64,000 nucleotides of DNA from Bacteroidia bacterium (lineage in GTDB: Bacteria; Bacteroidota; Ignavibacteria; SZUA-365). Within the stretch, counting starts at the first letter, position 1. The number at the start of each line of letters is the position of its first letter. A model generated the notes under the pieces. The model worked only from the letters and a program-made list of their open reading frames with translations. It was not told where the DNA came from and did no database searches. The stretch lies in NCBI GenBank assembly GCA_027493955.1, contig JAOSJT010000001.1, forward strand, positions 511,131-575,130. Direction: 5' to 3'. A program made the position numbers and the translations under genes. This document shows, piece after piece, positions 51 to 9,352 of this stretch.

Positions 51-85
51 CGGCGAAGCGGAACCCGGAGGCAGAAGGAGTGTCC

Positions 86-3061
86 ATGAGATCATTTTTT
101 CGATTCTTCTCATTTTCGGCCGCGCTTGCAGGAACGGTGCTCTGCGCCGGTGCGGTCGCATTTGCGCAGCTCACCGGCGATGTGACGCGCGTTCTCGTGC
201 GTCCCGCCAATGTGAAAGCGGAATTCACGACATTTTGCGGGGGGCAGCGCTATGAGTCGTTGACGCAGAATGATGTTACAACCATCGTGGACGGGGCTCC
301 GGTGGAGATACTGGGCTTCCGCTGCCCGGATCCCGGGACGAGGCCGTATTCCGCTGTGTTGCTGCTGGATGTGAGCGAAGATGTAGGACAAATGCGTGCG
401 CAAATCATGCGCGATGCGGCCCGCAGTTTTGTCGACAGTCTCGACGGCGTGCTCGACGAGGCCTCGGTCATGATGTACAATGCGCACTCCGAGGTCATTC
501 AGCAGATGACCACGATAAAGCCGATGCTGTACAGCGCGCTGGAGCGTCAATCCGGGATTGGCGAACGGCATACCTATGACGCCTTGTACCACGCGGTGGA
601 GGAGGTTTCCCTGATGCCGTCGCACAACACGACGGCGGTGATTCATTTTGTCGCCGGTCCGGAGCAGGGTAGCAGCGAACATTACGGCAAACTGCTCTCC
701 CTCGCTCGTCAGCGCGGTGTACGGATTTATAGTATCGCTTTCGCGGGATGGTCGGTTTCCGGCCTTGAGAGTCTCGTGAATTCCACGGGAGGGAGTCTTT
801 TCCGAACCGATGACGTTTCGCGTATGCGCGCGAAGCTGACGGAGATACGGGATTCCCTTCGGCGCTATGCGGAACAATGCTCGGTGGTGCTTCCGTTGCT
901 CTGTACCGATGGAGACGCGCATGCGCTTACCCTGCATGTCAGCGGATGCAATGACACAAGTTCCTTGCACGCATCGTACATCGCACCGGAGAATGGGGTC
1001 CCGTCCCAAAACCTGTTCTTTTCCATGGGAAAAACGATGACGCGCGGGCTCGACACTTTCCGCGTCCCGATCACCCTGCACACCGTGCCGAAGACGGGCG
1101 TGCTGTATCCGGCGCTCTTCTGGTTCGGGTGCGATCCCGCACGGCTGACCTTCATCGACGCCGAGGCGCCTCCGGGCGGTCTCCTGCACGGCGTCCCGCT
1201 GCACGTGGAACGCGGCAACGATTACATCAAGATCTCGACGGACCGGCCTGTGCCGGTGTCTTCAGAAGGCCTCTGCCTGATGCTTACGCTGGCGGCACGA
1301 GGTACGCTCAAAACCGTGGAAACAACGATTCGCACGGTGAGTGCGCGCAGTCTCAGCGGCTGCGGGAATCTCTCCCTTAACGGATCGAATGTTACGATTT
1401 ATCCGAATAATGCCGCTTCGGTCCTCCATCTGCGATCGGGCCAGATCACGGCATCGGGCATGACGGTGGAATTCTCCGCTTTGTGCGACGGCAATTCGCT
1501 CTTGGCAGCGGACAGTGCGAACGTGCGTGTGGTGATTGACGGTGTGCCGCAGACGCTTGCGTCGCCTCCGAAGTCCCTCGGTGAAGGAGTGTGGGAATGT
1601 GCGCTCCTGTATTCCTGTACCGACGGCCGTTCGCATCATGTGCAGCTGACGCTGGAGAATACGTGTTCGGAGATGATCAGCGACACGCTGACCATTCCTT
1701 CACCCTTGATCGCCCGGCACATTGTTTTCGAGGGGCCGGAGCACATCTGCGCGGGAGATTCGACCGTGCTGGACGCCGGCGCCGGATACGCGGCGTATCG
1801 CTGGAGCACAGGGGAGACCAGCAGGCGCATCGTCGTTCACAAGCCCGATGTGTACATCGTCGCCGTGGAAAGCGCAACGGACGTCTGCGATGTCTACATC
1901 GCCCCTGCCATTGTCAGCGGACCGGTGCAGCCACGCATTCAGCCGCCGGGCCCATACACCTTGTGCAGGGGAGCGACCCGCACACTCACGCTGCCGTTGA
2001 ACTATGCTTCCTATCGCTGGTCGAACGGCAGCGAACAGGAAAGTATTACGGTCTCCGTCCCCGGTGAGTACTTCGTCACCGTGACGGATCAGAGCGGTTG
2101 CATCATTCAATCAGACACCGTGCACATTACGCAAGCGGATACTTTGCGTCCCGTTATCACACCAGGCGGTGTTGTTACGTTCTGTGAAGGGGCCGGGGTG
2201 GAGCTCGATGCAGGCGGACAATGGAACCGGTATCTCTGGTCGAACGGTCATGAGGGCAGGCGGCTGTACGTCCATGAAAGCGGCAATTACTCCGTCCGCG
2301 TCTGGAATGAGACAGGGTGTACCGGTGAATCCGCCGCCATACCTGTGATGTCGCTGCCGAATCCGAAACCTCGCATCGAGATCGAGGGGTCTCTCGATCT
2401 GTGCGAAGGCGACAGTGTCCGGCTCTCCCTGCCCGGATTCGAGCACCGCGTTTTGTGGATCACGGAAGATACCATCTCGTCACTCATGGTCCGTTCGGCA
2501 GGCGTGTTTTGGGCAAGTGTCCGTCACACGAACGGTTGCCAGGCGGCGACCGACACCGTTGTCGTGCGACTGTATTCCCGCCCGCCACGGCCGGACATCA
2601 CGCGCGTGGGCAACAGGTTGCAAACCATTCCCTGGAGCGCATACCAGTGGTATCTGGACGGTGCACCGATTCCTGGCGCGACGTCCGCGTTCTATGACCT
2701 GAAGTCAGCCGGCGGCTATCAGGTGGAAGTATTCAATGAGCACGGCTGTTCGAGTATCTCCCGGTTGTTCGATGTGAATGTGCTGGATGCGGCATCGGCT
2801 GATGTGACGCAGTTTCGCTGTGAGCTGTATCCCGAACCGGTCATCGAAAGTGTGACAGTGGATATCTCGTTGCCCGCGCCCGGGCGGCTGCATGCAGTAT
2901 TGAGCGACATGGCGGGACGGGCTGTTCTTCGGGAGGAGGTCGAAACAGCCGGGACACGGCATCTGCTGAAAATCGATGTATCCGCGCTGTCCCCGGGTGT
3001 GTACATCTTCCGGTTGATCCATGGGAATGCCGTTACAGGTCGCGTTATCACAAAAATGTGA
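86..3061 (+). CDS. Secreted vWA-domain protein with Ig-like repeats and T9SS sorting domain
   Basis: A 991-residue exported protein. The ATG at 86 is preferred over the GTG at 80 because AGGAG at 76-80 sits 5 nt upstream. Residues 1-28 form a signal peptide ending AFAQ. A von Willebrand A-like fold follows (about 85-265), but its metal site reads D-V-S-E-D where DxSxS is expected, so metal binding is doubtful. The second half carries about five Ig/PKD-like repeats with the pattern Y-x-W-S-x-G...G-x-Y-x-V-x-V...G-C. The last ~80 residues (from ELYPEP to VITKM) match a type-A T9SS C-terminal sorting domain, so the protein is probably anchored to the surface or released through the Por system. 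It is paralogous to the next gene in architecture. The ligand is unknown; an adhesin or surface-structure role is inference. Confidence 0.85.
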   Translation: MRSFFRFFSFSAALAGTVLCAGAVAFAQLTGDVTRVLVRPANVKAEFTTFCGGQRYESLTQNDVTTIVDGAPVEILGFRCPDPGTRPYSAVLLLDVSEDVGQMRAQIMRDAARSFVDSLDGVLDEASVMMYNAHSEVIQQMTTIKPMLYSALERQSGIGERHTYDALYHAVEEVSLMPSHNTTAVIHFVAGPEQGSSEHYGKLLSLARQRGVRIYSIAFAGWSVSGLESLVNSTGGSLFRTDDVSRMRAKLTEIRDSLRRYAEQCSVVLPLLCTDGDAHALTLHVSGCNDTSSLHASYIAPENGVPSQNLFFSMGKTMTRGLDTFRVPITLHTVPKTGVLYPALFWFGCDPARLTFIDAEAPPGGLLHGVPLHVERGNDYIKISTDRPVPVSSEGLCLMLTLAARGTLKTVETTIRTVSARSLSGCGNLSLNGSNVTIYPNNAASVLHLRSGQITASGMTVEFSALCDGNSLLAADSANVRVVIDGVPQTLASPPKSLGEGVWECALLYSCTDGRSHHVQLTLENTCSEMISDTLTIPSPLIARHIVFEGPEHICAGDSTVLDAGAGYAAYRWSTGETSRRIVVHKPDVYIVAVESATDVCDVYIAPAIVSGPVQPRIQPPGPYTLCRGATRTLTLPLNYASYRWSNGSEQESITVSVPGEYFVTVTDQSGCIIQSDTVHITQADTLRPVITPGGVVTFCEGAGVELDAGGQWNRYLWSNGHEGRRLYVHESGNYSVRVWNETGCTGESAAIPVMSLPNPKPRIEIEGSLDLCEGDSVRLSLPGFEHRVLWITEDTISSLMVRSAGVFWASVRHTNGCQAATDTVVVRLYSRPPRPDITRVGNRLQTIPWSAYQWYLDGAPIPGATSAFYDLKSAGGYQVEVFNEHGCSSISRLFDVNVLDAASADVTQFRCELYPEPVIESVTVDISLPAPGRLHAVLSDMAGRAVLREEVETAGTRHLLKIDVSALSPGVYIFRLIHGNAVTGRVITKM

Positions 3062-3204
3062 CGCCAAATCAACCGCGTCGTGAAAATGGCGGCATGATGC
3101 TGTAACAATTGCCGTCGTCATGTGTTATTCTTTACTATACATGATGACGAACTCATTCGCCGTTCGAGTTCACGAAGTCTCAAGTGCGAAAAAGGAGGAA
3201 GCAA

Positions 3205-6200
3205 ATGATGAAAACGTATTGTACCAACCTGCGCCGTCTCACTCTCATAATACCGGTTCTGTTTATTTCCTTGTCAGTCGCTCACAGTCAGCCGGATTTG
3301 CGTATTCAGCGTGTTGTCAGGAACTGGCCGGGCATTTCCGTGTTTTACAGCATCCAATGCGGTGGTCAGCTGAATTTTTCCCATACGGTGCAGCAACTTT
3401 CCCTCCGCGAGCAGGGCTTCCCCGTCACGGCGTTCACGAAGTACTGTCCGGACACAACGCTGGTGGGTGACATTTCGCTCGGACTGGTGCTGGACGGCTC
3501 GGGGAGTACGATCGGAGCCGGGAACCGGTGGATAAAGGCTGGGGCAAAAGCCGCGATCGAAAAAATGAAATCCTCCGACGAAGGTGCGGTGCTGCATTTT
3601 GCTTCCACTCCCTCGCTTGTACAATCCATGACAACCGACACAGCGGCACTCAAGGCTGCGGCAGACCAGCTCATCGCTTCCGGACAATCCGGGGTGTATT
3701 CCGGGATTTACCTGGGTCTGACACATCTGGGACTTACCGCATCGAAGAGCCGCCGGGCCATAATTGTCACGACGGACAGTGGGGACAATTCCAGTCTTCA
3801 CGCACCGGACTCCATTGTAGCATTATCGGTGCGGCTGGGAATTCCGGTGATCGTGATCGGCATTGGCGCAAGTGTGCCGACTGCCGAGTTCAGCGCCTTC
3901 GCGAATCTGACTGGCGGTGCGTTCATCCTGGCGACAGACTCTGTTGCCGTTTCGCAGGCCTTTCGCGACGCCTACGAGCTTGTGGCAGATGATTTTCAGG
4001 TATGCCGTCTCGACTACACAACGTCATGCACCGACGGTACGCTTCGCCTCGTCGAGCTCGAAGTCACCGGCGTGTGTTCCGGTAGCGATATGGATAACAA
4101 TCAGTACCGCGCGGTGATGGATACGAGCGGTCGGACACCTTTGGTGCTCAGTTTTCCACCTACCGAGGCGCTCGCCACCAAACCTTTCGTGATACCGGTC
4201 AGCATCAGCTCTGTGTCTCCCGGGCTGCTGCACAGTTTCGACATGGATCTGCAATTCACCTCTCAGTGCATGGTGCTCGATTCGATCTCCGTACCGGCAG
4301 GATCGCCTCTCGCCGGCTCGACCCTCATCGGATATCCGGTAAGCGGGTACACGCGCGTGCGTTCCGGAGTTACCGTCCCCGTCACCGGACCCGGCCCGCT
4401 GTTGAATTTGCATTTTACCGCCGCTCCCCGCGTTGATTCCGCGACCTGCGTTCTGACCATGCAGCGGGTGCTGTATGCCGCCGGATGCTATACGTCACCC
4501 ACTGTGTCCACCGGGGTGAATATCGGGGTGCCGCCGCTGCCGGTTATTTCGCCCTCGGGGCGCATCACCTTGTGTCCTGGTGAAACCGTAACCCTTGTCG
4601 CCAATCCCGGTTATGACACCTACGAGTGGAACACCACGAGCACTGCGCAATCCATCGTCGTCTCCACCGCCGGCAGCTACTCGGTGACGGTCATGGACCG
4701 AGCCGGCCGTACAGCGACCTCAGCACCGGTGGAAGTCGTTTTTCGTAGCTCTCCCAATCCGCGGTTGACCGTCGGACCGACGCTCACGCTGTGCAAGGGA
4801 AGTTCCGTCCTCGTCGGTGTCAATGCAGCTTTCCCTTCGTACCAATGGTCCACCGGTATGCCGACGAACTCCATCCTCGTGACGCAAGCCGGGAGCTACT
4901 TCGTCACGGTGACGGACGACCATGGCTGTACCTGGAATTCCGATACCCTCGTGGTCACTGTCTCCGATCCGCAGGTCGCGATCTCCGCCAGCGGACCTCT
5001 GACGCTGTGCGAGGGAGAAGAAGTCACGTTGACGGCGAGTCCGGGTTTTGATACTTACACATGGTCAAGCAACGAGAAAACTCCAGCTATCGTGGTGCGA
5101 AGTTCCGGAAGCTATTTCGTTCAGGCCAGGAATGCAGCCGGCTGCACGGCTGTTTCGGATACCATTGAAGTGATTGTCCGGACACGTCCGACAGCAGGCA
5201 TTCTTCCGTCGGGACCTCCCGTGCTGTGTCCCGGCGACACCTTGTATCTCGATGGCACGCCGACGTTTGCGTCATGGGATTGGTCCACCGGTGAGGCGAC
5301 CCGTACCATCGCGATTTCGCGGGCGGGAACGTATTCTCTGAGTGGTATGGATGCCTTCGGCTGTCGTTCCGATACCGTCTCGCTTACGGTCACAATGGAG
5401 CAACGTCCCGCATTGAATCTTCCCGATACCGTCACCATCTGTCCCACGGGTGCTGTGACCATGGACGCGGGTGCGGATTACACGTCCTATCTTTGGAGTC
5501 AGGGAGCGACGACCCGAAGCATCAGAGTCAGCACCGCAGGAACATTTTTCGTTCGCGTCGGCACAAGTAGCGGGTGCGTGATGTATTCCGATACCGTCGT
5601 CGTCGAGGTACGCGCGCAACTCAAGCCGGTGGTCACACTCAGCGGTCCCTCGCGCATCTGTGAAGGGGATAGCGTACAGCTGGACGGTGGAGATTTCTTG
5701 AGTTGGGATTGGTCCACGGGCGAAAAGACCCGTCGTATCACCGTGCGCAGTGGGGGCAGTTATTCTGTCAGTGTCACTGATGCATACGGTTGTTCCGGCA
5801 GCAGCGATCCCGTCGTGATCACGGTGGTGCCCGCTCCCGCGCCGACCGTACAGGCGTTGACGCCGACACGGGTCTGCGTAGGGGATACTGTGGTGCTTGT
5901 TGCCTCCCCGGGCTTTGTAGATTATCAGTGGAGTAACGGCAGCACGGGAGCAACGCTTCGAGTCACCAGCAGCGGAAGCTATTTCGTGACTGTGGTGAAT
6001 GCGGATGGCTGCGGAGGTACGTCGCCGCCGCTTTCCGTAACCGTTGTTCCACCGCCGACAAAACCCGCAATCACCCGAAGCGGTGATACCTTGCTTTCGA
6101 CTCCCGCCGTAGCTTATCAGTGGCTGAAAGATGGAAGCATACTGACGGGTGCGACGGGGCGGAGCCTCATACCGGCCTCCTCGGGCAGTTATGTCGTACG

Positions 6201-6531
6201 CGTCTTCAACGTCGACGGCTGTTTCACCGATTCGGATCCGCTGACCGTTGTCGGCAGTCCTTCTGTTGAAGCACCCAAACCTCGCGGAATTTCCGTGTAT
6301 CCCGATCCCACGAGCGGACGCGTCACCGTCAGTGGCGAGATTACCAGGGGCATCGGTCTGGAAATAACGGCCACCAATCTGCTTGGACAGACGGTTGCGC
6401 GCATCGTGGATACGGGCGCTCGCGGGTTGTTCAATCGCAATATCGATATCAGCGGAGCACCACGCGGGGTGTACCTGTTGCACGTGCGCTACGGAAACCA
6501 TGTGATCGTCCGGCGCATCGTCAAAACCTGA
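3205..6531 (+). CDS. Secreted vWA-domain protein with eight Ig-like repeats and T9SS sorting domain
   Basis: A 1108-residue exported protein with the same architecture as its upstream neighbour. The start is ATG 3205 (a second ATG follows at 3208), with AAGGAGG at 3192-3198. After the signal peptide the vWA domain contains an intact MIDAS start, D-G-S-G-S. A cohesin-like or beta-sandwich region follows, then eight Ig-like repeats of about 75 residues, each with Y/W-x-W-S...G-S-Y-x-V-x-V...G-C-x-x-x-S-D. The C-terminus (ISVYPDP to RIVKT) is a type-A T9SS sorting domain. About 140 nt separate it from the first gene, so the two may share transcription or have separate promoters. It is likely a long surface stalk with a vWA head; the ligand is unknown. 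Confidence 0.87.
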   Translation: MMKTYCTNLRRLTLIIPVLFISLSVAHSQPDLRIQRVVRNWPGISVFYSIQCGGQLNFSHTVQQLSLREQGFPVTAFTKYCPDTTLVGDISLGLVLDGSGSTIGAGNRWIKAGAKAAIEKMKSSDEGAVLHFASTPSLVQSMTTDTAALKAAADQLIASGQSGVYSGIYLGLTHLGLTASKSRRAIIVTTDSGDNSSLHAPDSIVALSVRLGIPVIVIGIGASVPTAEFSAFANLTGGAFILATDSVAVSQAFRDAYELVADDFQVCRLDYTTSCTDGTLRLVELEVTGVCSGSDMDNNQYRAVMDTSGRTPLVLSFPPTEALATKPFVIPVSISSVSPGLLHSFDMDLQFTSQCMVLDSISVPAGSPLAGSTLIGYPVSGYTRVRSGVTVPVTGPGPLLNLHFTAAPRVDSATCVLTMQRVLYAAGCYTSPTVSTGVNIGVPPLPVISPSGRITLCPGETVTLVANPGYDTYEWNTTSTAQSIVVSTAGSYSVTVMDRAGRTATSAPVEVVFRSSPNPRLTVGPTLTLCKGSSVLVGVNAAFPSYQWSTGMPTNSILVTQAGSYFVTVTDDHGCTWNSDTLVVTVSDPQVAISASGPLTLCEGEEVTLTASPGFDTYTWSSNEKTPAIVVRSSGSYFVQARNAAGCTAVSDTIEVIVRTRPTAGILPSGPPVLCPGDTLYLDGTPTFASWDWSTGEATRTIAISRAGTYSLSGMDAFGCRSDTVSLTVTMEQRPALNLPDTVTICPTGAVTMDAGADYTSYLWSQGATTRSIRVSTAGTFFVRVGTSSGCVMYSDTVVVEVRAQLKPVVTLSGPSRICEGDSVQLDGGDFLSWDWSTGEKTRRITVRSGGSYSVSVTDAYGCSGSSDPVVITVVPAPAPTVQALTPTRVCVGDTVVLVASPGFVDYQWSNGSTGATLRVTSSGSYFVTVVNADGCGGTSPPLSVTVVPPPTKPAITRSGDTLLSTPAVAYQWLKDGSILTGATGRSLIPASSGSYVVRVFNVDGCFTDSDPLTVVGSPSVEAPKPRGISVYPDPTSGRVTVSGEITRGIGLEITATNLLGQTVARIVDTGARGLFNRNIDISGAPRGVYLLHVRYGNHVIVRRIVKT

Positions 6532-6626: not shown

Positions 6627-7853
6627 TCATTTGTACCGAAGCTTCCTTTCAGGGAGAAAGAGAATAGAGCGCAAGGCCTGGATCTTGTGTATGGCCGAGA
6701 CAGCAAAATCCATATACGACTGACGCTGCAGCAGGTCCTGAATGATCATGTGCTCGGAGTGGACAAGCGCGTCTTCCTGCAGTTCCCCGACACGTTTGTT
6801 CAGACCATGCCAGGTGGAGTTGAGCATGTTGCCGTAGGTCGCGTAGGACTGATGCTTGATCAGATTCTTGATGCGCGAATCGAGCGCGAGGGATTCCCTG
6901 CCGTGTCCATTGTCGGAAAGATCAATGGCTTTTATCTCGAACGTACGGTAGTCCCCGGCGGTGTGCGTGTATATCGCCATTTCCCGAATGTACAATTCGC
7001 TGTAGCAGAGCCACTTCGCCTGCGCAATCAGCCCATCCTCGAAGCGGGCATCCTCGAGCACATAGTGAATTTTCTCGATATAGGGATGAATATCAACACG
7101 CTGGAAACGGTACATCTCCTCCAGAACATGGAGCACATTCTCCTTGGTGACGGCCTTGTCCTTCTTTCGGAGCAACTTGTCGGCTTCCGTCAGCAGGAGG
7201 TCGTAAAAATTCGTCACCATGCGCAAATGCGAATGCAATTCCGGCGATGTGTACTGATCGAGGAACTGTTGATAGCCGTGGACGCCATAGGGCTCACCGT
7301 GCGCATCGGGAACACGTTCCAGCAGATCCTCGAGCGCATCGTGCATGAATCCGACGGTGGAGTACACATGTCCGCCGTCATTGTCCATACCGAGCCGCCG
7401 TACGACGGCGCCGACGCGGCTCAGATGCGCGACGGAAGAAATGCCGCATTTGCGCGAAAGTCGGTACTTGAGGAACAGACGGATAATTTCCCGTACTTCC
7501 TCGGCGTAGTGACCGTAGAGCGGTTCGAGATCCACCGCATCGGGGAGGTCCCCGAACAGCACCCGCAATTGCAGGCGCTGAAAGTCTATGCCTTCCTCCA
7601 CCTGACTGCGCGCATCGGAAATCTCGGTGGACGCCTTATCCACGTGCGGTCTGCGTTGCCCGAAGCCCTCCGGGTGGCTTTCTAAATGCCGTTCGAATAC
7701 CCCGCGCATCACCTGCGCGTGTTGAATGCCGTACAGTGCGACGAGATCCTGTGACTCCGGCAGGACGCAACGAAGGAGTGCGTCGAGTAGGTTGCATGCG
7801 TTCTGATAGCGGGGATCCTGCTGCATTCGTTGGATGCTGTCGTTATAGCGCAT
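6627..7853 (-). CDS. Stand-alone HD-domain protein resembling the RelA/SpoT (ppGpp) hydrolase domain
   Basis: A 408-residue cytoplasmic protein. Residues ~137-340 carry the HD signature of RelA/SpoT/Mesh1 hydrolases: a His in VAHLSRVG (H143), H171-D172 followed by E175-D176 in MHDALED, and D311-x-x-x-N315 in DLSDN. The HD-to-ED spacing and the D-to-N spacing of 4 equal those of Rel family hydrolases (H77-D78, E81-D82, D144, N148 in streptococcal Rel). There is no synthetase domain and no TGS/ACT region. The first ~130 residues and the last ~70 match nothing I recognise and are mostly helical in character. The likely chemistry is Mn-dependent hydrolysis of a 3'-pyrophosphate or another phosphoester; the substrate is inferred. 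GAGG lies about 8 nt before the ATG. It is monocistronic and convergent with the vWA gene. Confidence 0.7.
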   Translation of the reverse strand: MRYNDSIQRMQQDPRYQNACNLLDALLRCVLPESQDLVALYGIQHAQVMRGVFERHLESHPEGFGQRRPHVDKASTEISDARSQVEEGIDFQRLQLRVLFGDLPDAVDLEPLYGHYAEEVREIIRLFLKYRLSRKCGISSVAHLSRVGAVVRRLGMDNDGGHVYSTVGFMHDALEDLLERVPDAHGEPYGVHGYQQFLDQYTSPELHSHLRMVTNFYDLLLTEADKLLRKKDKAVTKENVLHVLEEMYRFQRVDIHPYIEKIHYVLEDARFEDGLIAQAKWLCYSELYIREMAIYTHTAGDYRTFEIKAIDLSDNGHGRESLALDSRIKNLIKHQSYATYGNMLNSTWHGLNKRVGELQEDALVHSEHMIIQDLLQRQSYMDFAVSAIHKIQALRSILFLPERKLRYK

Positions 7854-8365
7854 TGATAACCTCGGGGAAGTGAATAGCCGCAGTGCTCGTGCTGAAAGGT
7901 GCGCGGCCGTCGGGAGTGCAAGCCCTGCGGAAGTAACGGAGGGAACTCTCCCCGATGGGCATCAGTCCCGGTAACCTACGAGCTATGGACGCCATGCACG
8001 CTGCATCCTGTTCCGCTCACGAACTGTGCGTAAGGGAGAGGCATTTTTCAGCAACAGGGGAATATACGGGATTCCAGACTCCGATGACAGTGGCCGCATT
8101 CGAGAATGCACGGGACTGCACTGTTCGCGATCGCACGTCCGTGGCAGGTCTCCGGATCGTGTGCTGTCCGTTTTCGCCTGCTCGGTGACAGCGAAGCATC
8201 CGGGCGTGCATTTTTTTTACACTGGACTTTATGCCTGACAATTGCAACATTGCAGTTTGTACGATGGAACAATTCATGACGCTGTACGAAAAAAGAGGCT
8301 ATCATCCGAAACCACGGCTGACGGCCGGGACCGGAGTCGTGAAATCGCTGTATGCGGAACACCGA
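7854..8365. other. 512-bp intergenic region between divergent genes
   Basis: No convincing gene. It should hold the promoters for the HD protein (minus) and the META lipoprotein (plus). The stretch 7915-7985 is GC-rich with several short complementary runs (for example GGAG/CTCC and GATG/CATC), which might be a structured leader, but I could not match it to a known riboswitch class. A T run occurs at 8211-8218. Confidence 0.4.
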
Positions 8366-8788: not shown

Positions 8789-8848
8789 TGCGTGGCAGAC
8801 CCGTCCTACGCGGGATCCCATTCTCTCAAATGCAACAAGGAAGACACG

Positions 8849-9352
8849 ATGGCCCGTAATATCGAGATCAAGGCACGGCTGGACAATGCGGAGGATTTTC
8901 TTTCTCGTGTCGGTGAGCTGGCGGACAGCGGTCCGTTTGAAATGGAGCAGGACGACACCTTCTTCCGTTGTGAAAACGGCCGGTTGAAATTACGGGTGCT
9001 CTCCGAAGCGCATGCGGAGCTGATCTATTATCGCAGAGGCGATCAGGCCGGACCGAAGGAGTCGTATTACCACATCACTCCCACCATGGATCCTGAGGGC
9101 CTGCGAGAATCGCTCGATATGGCCTACGGCATAGTGGGACGTGTCGTCAAACACAGGACGCTCTTCATGATCGGTCGCACACGCGTGCACATCGATCGGG
9201 TGGAGGGATTGGGGAGTTTTATGGAGCTTGAAGTCGTCCTGAACGATGATGAGAGGAGCGGAGACGGAATGCGGGAGGCCACAACGCTGATGCACAGTCT
9301 CGGCATCGCCGAGGATTCCCTGATAGACTGCGCGTACGTCGACATGCTGTGA
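8849..9352 (+). CDS. CYTH-domain protein (class IV adenylate cyclase/triphosphatase-like)
   Basis: A 167-residue protein. The start is ATG 8849 with AAGGAAG at 8837-8843; the open frame further upstream lacks a ribosome site. It begins M-A-R-N-I-E-I-K-A-R-L, the ExExK-like strand of CYTH domains, and later has R-x-R-V-H-I-D-R-V-E-G-L-G and the acidic strand S-F-M-E-L-E-V. CYTH enzymes form a tunnel that binds triphosphate-containing substrates with divalent metal. Proteins of this length and N-terminus are usually annotated as class IV adenylate cyclase; which substrate is used cannot be told from sequence alone. It lies 60 nt after the META lipoprotein and could be cotranscribed. Confidence 0.8.
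   Translation: MARNIEIKARLDNAEDFLSRVGELADSGPFEMEQDDTFFRCENGRLKLRVLSEAHAELIYYRRGDQAGPKESYYHITPTMDPEGLRESLDMAYGIVGRVVKHRTLFMIGRTRVHIDRVEGLGSFMELEVVLNDDERSGDGMREATTLMHSLGIAEDSLIDCAYVDML

Follow-up and report, generated by a model that had tools for sequence, protein, structure and literature searches.

A divergent, probable alarmone-type hydrolase with a duplicated N-terminal unit in one class of environmental Bacteroidota

A gene for a 408-residue protein, found in a 64,000-nucleotide stretch of bacterial DNA (hereafter the window), raises the question of whether the catalytic set of the RelA/SpoT-type (RSH) hydrolases can be carried by a protein otherwise built on different lines, and of what such a protein would act upon. 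The original prediction, drawn from the sequence, took the product to be an RSH-type HD hydrolase without a synthetase and with an extra N-terminal domain. The first of these claims is sustained here by profile comparison with controls, by a supportive fold match and by the invariance of the catalytic residues, while the second proved to describe only part of an altered architecture.

The gene, its relatives and its neighbours

The minus-strand reading frame, which opens with ATG, is a real gene; its features are collected in Table 1. The sequence MRY at the N-terminus of the protein is common to close homologues, in support of the likely ribosome-binding site. Homologues occur in 10 other genomes of the same family (nine at 58-61% identity and one at 34%), and in more distant genomes of the class at 31-42% identity; near and distant homologues alike have open frames. 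Members are about 400 residues long, and the full-length homologues end at the same place. A long plus-strand frame overlapping the gene (6687-7685) is broken by stops in most homologous loci and was taken to be an antisense mirror.

Table 1. Features of the hydrolase gene and its product, in window positions
Feature	Position	Strand	Basis
Gene for the 408-aa RSH-type HD hydrolase	6627..7853	minus	ORF and translation; 27 aligned members; AlphaFold model (pLDDT 89.1, pTM 0.86)
GAGG, likely ribosome-binding site, 6 nt upstream of ATG	7860..7863	minus	sequence read
First copy of the N-terminal repeat (residues 8-61), bearing the P-x4-L-x3-YG signature (P32, L37, Y41-G42)	7671..7832	minus	hhalign; helix pattern of the model
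N-terminal repeat copy 2, residues 83-132 (P104, L109, Y113-G114), running into the HD core	7458..7607	minus	hhalign; conservation
HD motif 1, R134-K135-C136 ... H143-x2-R146-V147 (RelSeq R44-K45-S46 ... H53)	7413..7454	minus	invariance; hhalign register with Rel
HDxxED motif, H171-D172-A-L-E175-D176 (RelSeq H77-D78, E81-D82)	7326..7343	minus	invariance; hhalign to HDVxED of Rel and SAH
Insert, about residues 218-274, with about three predicted helices (216-230, 237-250, 253-267)	7032..7202	minus	spacing; DSSP of the model; boundaries estimated
Putative metal/substrate motif, K308-x2-D311-x3-N315 (RelSeq K-x2-D144-x3-N148)	6909..6932	minus	invariance; predicted helix 303-315
C-terminal helical region, residues 319-398 (about 80 residues)	6660..6899	minus	conservation; helices of the model

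A profile search at the level of the class gave matches in 28 of 294 genomes, with a patchy spread in which several families are represented and many are not; at the level of the phylum 7 of 395 genomes matched, all seven from this same class. The relatives whose records carry names, recovered in another scan, are metagenome-assembled genomes of Ignavibacteria/Bacteroidetes. On the homologues found, this family of roughly 400-residue hydrolases is known from one class of environmental Bacteroidota only. The viral contigs, phages and plasmids searched held no relatives of the protein, and a phage or mobile origin is therefore unsupported.

Comparison of gene surroundings revealed no conserved operon partner. 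In nine close relatives the hydrolase gene is immediately preceded, on its own strand, by a gene for a large mechanosensitive channel of MscS type. The genome of the window holds its MscS orthologue elsewhere (G000:C1:4465789-4467579, 67% identity), and in more distant families the neighbours of the hydrolase gene are unrelated; the channel was accordingly rejected as an operon partner, since the linkage is limited to close relatives and absent both in the window and in other families. Within the window, the gene on the convergent side encodes a VWA/Ig-like protein that has a C-terminal domain of the type IX secretion kind; on the divergent side lie genes for META- and CYTH-domain proteins. 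Association with defence was also rejected, there being no PADLOC hit for the protein and no recurring neighbour. A tandem pair of long secreted proteins, related to each other, is encoded on the plus strand at 80-6531; the downstream member combines VWA and Ig-like domains with the C-terminal domain of type IX secretion. The CYTH-domain protein (8792-9352, plus strand), a possible triphosphatase encoded close to the hydrolase gene and divergent from it, was not seen as a neighbour in relatives.

Elsewhere in the genome the RSH complement consists of one long Rel, encoded by a separate canonical gene (near G000:C1 4369578), and two ordinary small hydrolases, with no other RelA_SpoT synthetase domain. 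A role as the antidote of a toxin-antitoxin pair was rejected as a first choice, because the long Rel carries the one RelA_SpoT synthetase domain that the genome encodes. The ordinary Mesh1-like small alarmone hydrolase (SAH) of this genome lies in a run of overlapping genes (G000:C1:3197108-3199384; L110, L015) in the order MscS channel, Nudix hydrolase, SAH, and MscS genes are found near an SAH also in L076, L078 and L079; as the genome contains just five MscS genes, this second link between such a channel and an alarmone-type hydrolase is curious. The other small hydrolase (L016, G000:C1:4568233-4568670) reads AERLDN where the metal-aspartate motif ADRLxN is expected, with Glu in place of Asp.

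Affinity with the RSH hydrolases

Curated libraries are silent on this protein. Pfam (HD_4 included), NCBIfam and PADLOC gave no family match for the 408-residue sequence, neither HD_4 (PF13328) nor any other relevant Pfam model matched any of the 13 first members, and searches of PHROGs and of PDB sequences returned nothing relevant to it. The missing HD_4 match is a matter of library criterion rather than of biology. In the direct comparison of alignments, the RSH set comprised hydrolase domains from 24 Rel and 6 small hydrolases of this and related genomes. Compared by hhalign, the 27-member family aligned with the RSH HD domains at 92% probability (E 6e-7), over residues 115-177 only, whereas the reversed RSH alignment gave 0.3% and profiles of other HD families gave 0.3% (PgpH-type), 0.2% (RNase Y) and 0.2% (CCA-adding HD). 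Non-RSH HD families were rejected as the parent on the strength of these controls, and the best matches thus fall where the original prediction placed them.

The metal and catalytic residues that it had named (H143, H171-D172, E175-D176, D311 and N315) do stand at those positions, and each is invariant in all 27 aligned members, as is R134, the counterpart of RelSeq R44, which it had not listed. Invariance in 27/27 extends also to C136, R146, V147, N215, R303, E306, K308, L312 and D314. In RSH order, the equivalents of R44, H53, H77, D78, E81, D82, D144 and N148 are R134, H143, H171, D172, E175, D176, D311 and N315. The R-K-x-G-x5-H-x3-V of the hydrolase is in register with the RKSGEPYxxHPxxV of this genome's canonical Rel. 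Predicted secondary structure agrees with the motifs, placing R134 in the loop ahead of helix 140-153, which contains H143, and the HD dyad between helices 163-170 and 173-178, with D311 and N315 both within helix 303-315 of the AlphaFold model. The half of the protein bearing D311 gave no significant hhalign alignment with RSH, and the probable equivalence of D311 and N315 to D144 and N148 of RelSeq therefore has its basis in the motif, in the helix where both residues lie and in their conservation throughout the family. Certain pocket-side positions differ from Rel and are nonetheless invariant in the family: by motif register, S46 of Rel is replaced by C136, R145 by L312 and H147 by D314.

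The AlphaFold model, built with ten sequences, resembles SAH, SpoT and Rel. Among the hits listed by Foldseek against the PDB, the top probabilities and TM-scores belong to enzymes of alarmone-hydrolase type: a Pseudomonas aeruginosa hydrolase (6z3n, probability 0.75, TM-score by target 0.62), which we take to be the small alarmone hydrolase PaSAH, followed by SpoT (7qpr, 0.60) and the Rel of Thermus thermophilus (6s2v, 0.57), all with E-values above 1. E-values in this search exceeded 0.4 throughout, and by that measure chance helical matches, whose TM-scores are 0.1-0.2, rank above the RSH hits, so that the predicted fold is supportive of RSH kinship, not conclusive. Against viral models the E-values were weak throughout, with two proteins of about 215 residues at probability 0.93-0.95.

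Architecture around the catalytic core

Spacing of the motifs had been described as Rel-like, and this is so for the first interval, R134 to the HD dyad, which is 37 residues against 34-35 in Rel. It does not hold for the second: from HD to D311 there are 140 residues (139-142 across the family), as compared with 66-67 in Rel and 61-74 in the small hydrolases of this and related genomes. The difference is due to an insert of about 57 residues, located between a T214-N215 motif and the helix pair that bears D311.

The extra N-terminal domain is likewise present, but as a description of the protein it was incomplete, for in the extension, by profile comparison, the helical unit that precedes the HD core is duplicated in tandem, and the insert and some 80 conserved C-terminal residues also add to the size. 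Residues 1-72 aligned with residues 73-140 at 95% probability (P 3.4e-8), compared with 0.4% (P 0.16) for the reversed control, and both copies show a similar helix pattern in the model. P104, Y113 and G114 of the second copy are invariant in 27/27 members, and because this copy continues into the HD core, the extension looks like a copy of the core-leading unit rather than a captured foreign domain. Foldseek with the isolated N-terminal region (model pLDDT 82, pTM 0.42) against the PDB returned chance helical matches only. Downstream of the core, the C-terminal region retains invariant K333, G341, W348, E357, D361, S379 and D382. Synthetase, TGS and ACT domains are lacking, as had been supposed; the full-length homologues share one end point, and no Pfam hit was obtained.

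Probable activity and comparison with known systems

These features are best accommodated, in our judgement with good though not overwhelming likelihood, by a divergent stand-alone RSH hydrolase, most likely a 3'-pyrophosphohydrolase of a pyrophosphorylated nucleotide. The protein is probably active and probably Mn2+-dependent. In RelSeq, Mn2+ is bound by H53, H77 and D144, while D78 nears the metal as the substrate binds; contacts with pppGpp are made by R44 and N148, and either R44Q or D78A causes loss of hydrolysis (PMC13299517). By analogy, H143, H171, D172 and D311 would hold one Mn2+, and E175-D176 together with the metal would activate water, which would remove the 3'-pyrophosphate from the nucleotide. 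The likeliest substrates are (p)ppGpp and (p)ppApp, which R134 and N315 would grip in the manner of R44 and N148. The core is probably wrapped by the duplicated N-terminal unit, the insert with its three helices and the helical C-terminal region, parts that may act in oligomerisation, gating or substrate choice. Stand-alone SAH proteins are Mn2+-dependent and cleave both (pp)pGpp and (p)ppApp (PMC10434055, PMC9765508), and some cleave NADPH as well (PMC9765508), a breadth among known small hydrolases which means that sequence does not name the substrate here. The substrate may differ from that of Rel, since S46, R145 and H147 are replaced; C136, L312 and D314 would permit, rather than establish, such a difference.

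A contrary view, which we consider doubtful, holds that an RSH-derived hydrolase now acts on a non-alarmone substrate, for example NADPH (as Mesh1 and XccSAH do) or a 3'-pyrophosphorylated tRNA, in which case the extra helical parts would bind a different or larger substrate. In favour of this view, a fourth RSH hydrolase acting on (p)ppGpp seems redundant in a genome already holding a canonical Rel with its hydrolase domain and two small hydrolases, and the single RelA_SpoT synthetase domain leaves no toxic synthetase in need of an antidote; the pocket-side residues are invariant but differ from those of Rel, and NADPH hydrolysis is known for SAHs (PMC9765508). However, every residue holding the metal and the 3'-diphosphate is kept, and the base contacts of RelSeq K45, S46 and T151 are made by main-chain atoms (PMC13299517), so that an altered side chain at these positions is not in itself a sign of a new base. 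That some other HD phosphohydrolase family converged on the HDxxED pattern could be argued from the failure of any RSH library model to match and from the weak E-values of the RSH Foldseek hits, but it appears highly improbable when profiles favour RSH over three other HD families and when R-x8-H, HDxxED and KxxDxxxN co-occur in RSH order. Large conserved non-catalytic regions might also suit an RSH-like regulator devoid of catalysis, which would bind an alarmone but leave it intact. Lost activity usually frees metal and catalytic residues to vary, whereas here all of them are unchanged throughout 27 sequences whose identity falls to about 31%, and we attach almost no probability to that reading.

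Beyond the preferred reading of an RSH-type 3'-pyrophosphohydrolase, we would offer only tentatively, as a rather unlikely extension, that the family forms a separate, previously undescribed RSH clade in which the duplicated unit and the insert shape the pocket for a substrate other than free (p)ppGpp (for instance NADPH, a 3'-pyrophosphorylated tRNA or an adenine alarmone), and that the MscS linkage seen in close relatives may connect the family with envelope stress.

Small alarmone hydrolases (Mesh1, Mesh1-L, paSpo, pbcSpo, ActSpo2 and the enzyme of 6z3n) have the same stand-alone HD metal and catalytic motifs, in an HD domain without SYNTH, TGS or ACT, as does the protein described here, and among the structures that Foldseek listed for it 6z3n has the highest probability and TM-score, at an E-value above 1. 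These enzymes are of about 180-230 residues, compared with about 400 in this family, their HD-Asp spacing is 61-74 against 140, and they differ further from the 408-residue protein in its duplicated N-terminal unit, its insert, its conserved C-terminal region and its want of an HD_4 match. The long RSH proteins (Rel and SpoT) share R-K-x(7)-H-x3-V, HDxxED and KxxDxxxN in their hydrolase domain and are matched by Foldseek (7qpr and 6s2v, E-values above 1), but carry the SYNTH, TGS and ACT domains that are absent here. PgpH-type proteins, RNase Y and the CCA-adding enzyme have the HD dyad in common with it, without the ED pair and the R-x8-H, and gave profile probabilities of 0.2-0.3%. Compared by named groups rather than by a tree, the family was not recognised among those of the 2011 RSH survey (PMC3153485). 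Curated libraries miss it entirely, and inventories of alarmone hydrolases based upon them would therefore omit the protein. Its host bacteria already hold three other RSH hydrolase domains, and the combination of a full RSH catalytic set with a rebuilt periphery makes it possible to test in what way new regulation or substrates are gained by the alarmone-hydrolase fold.
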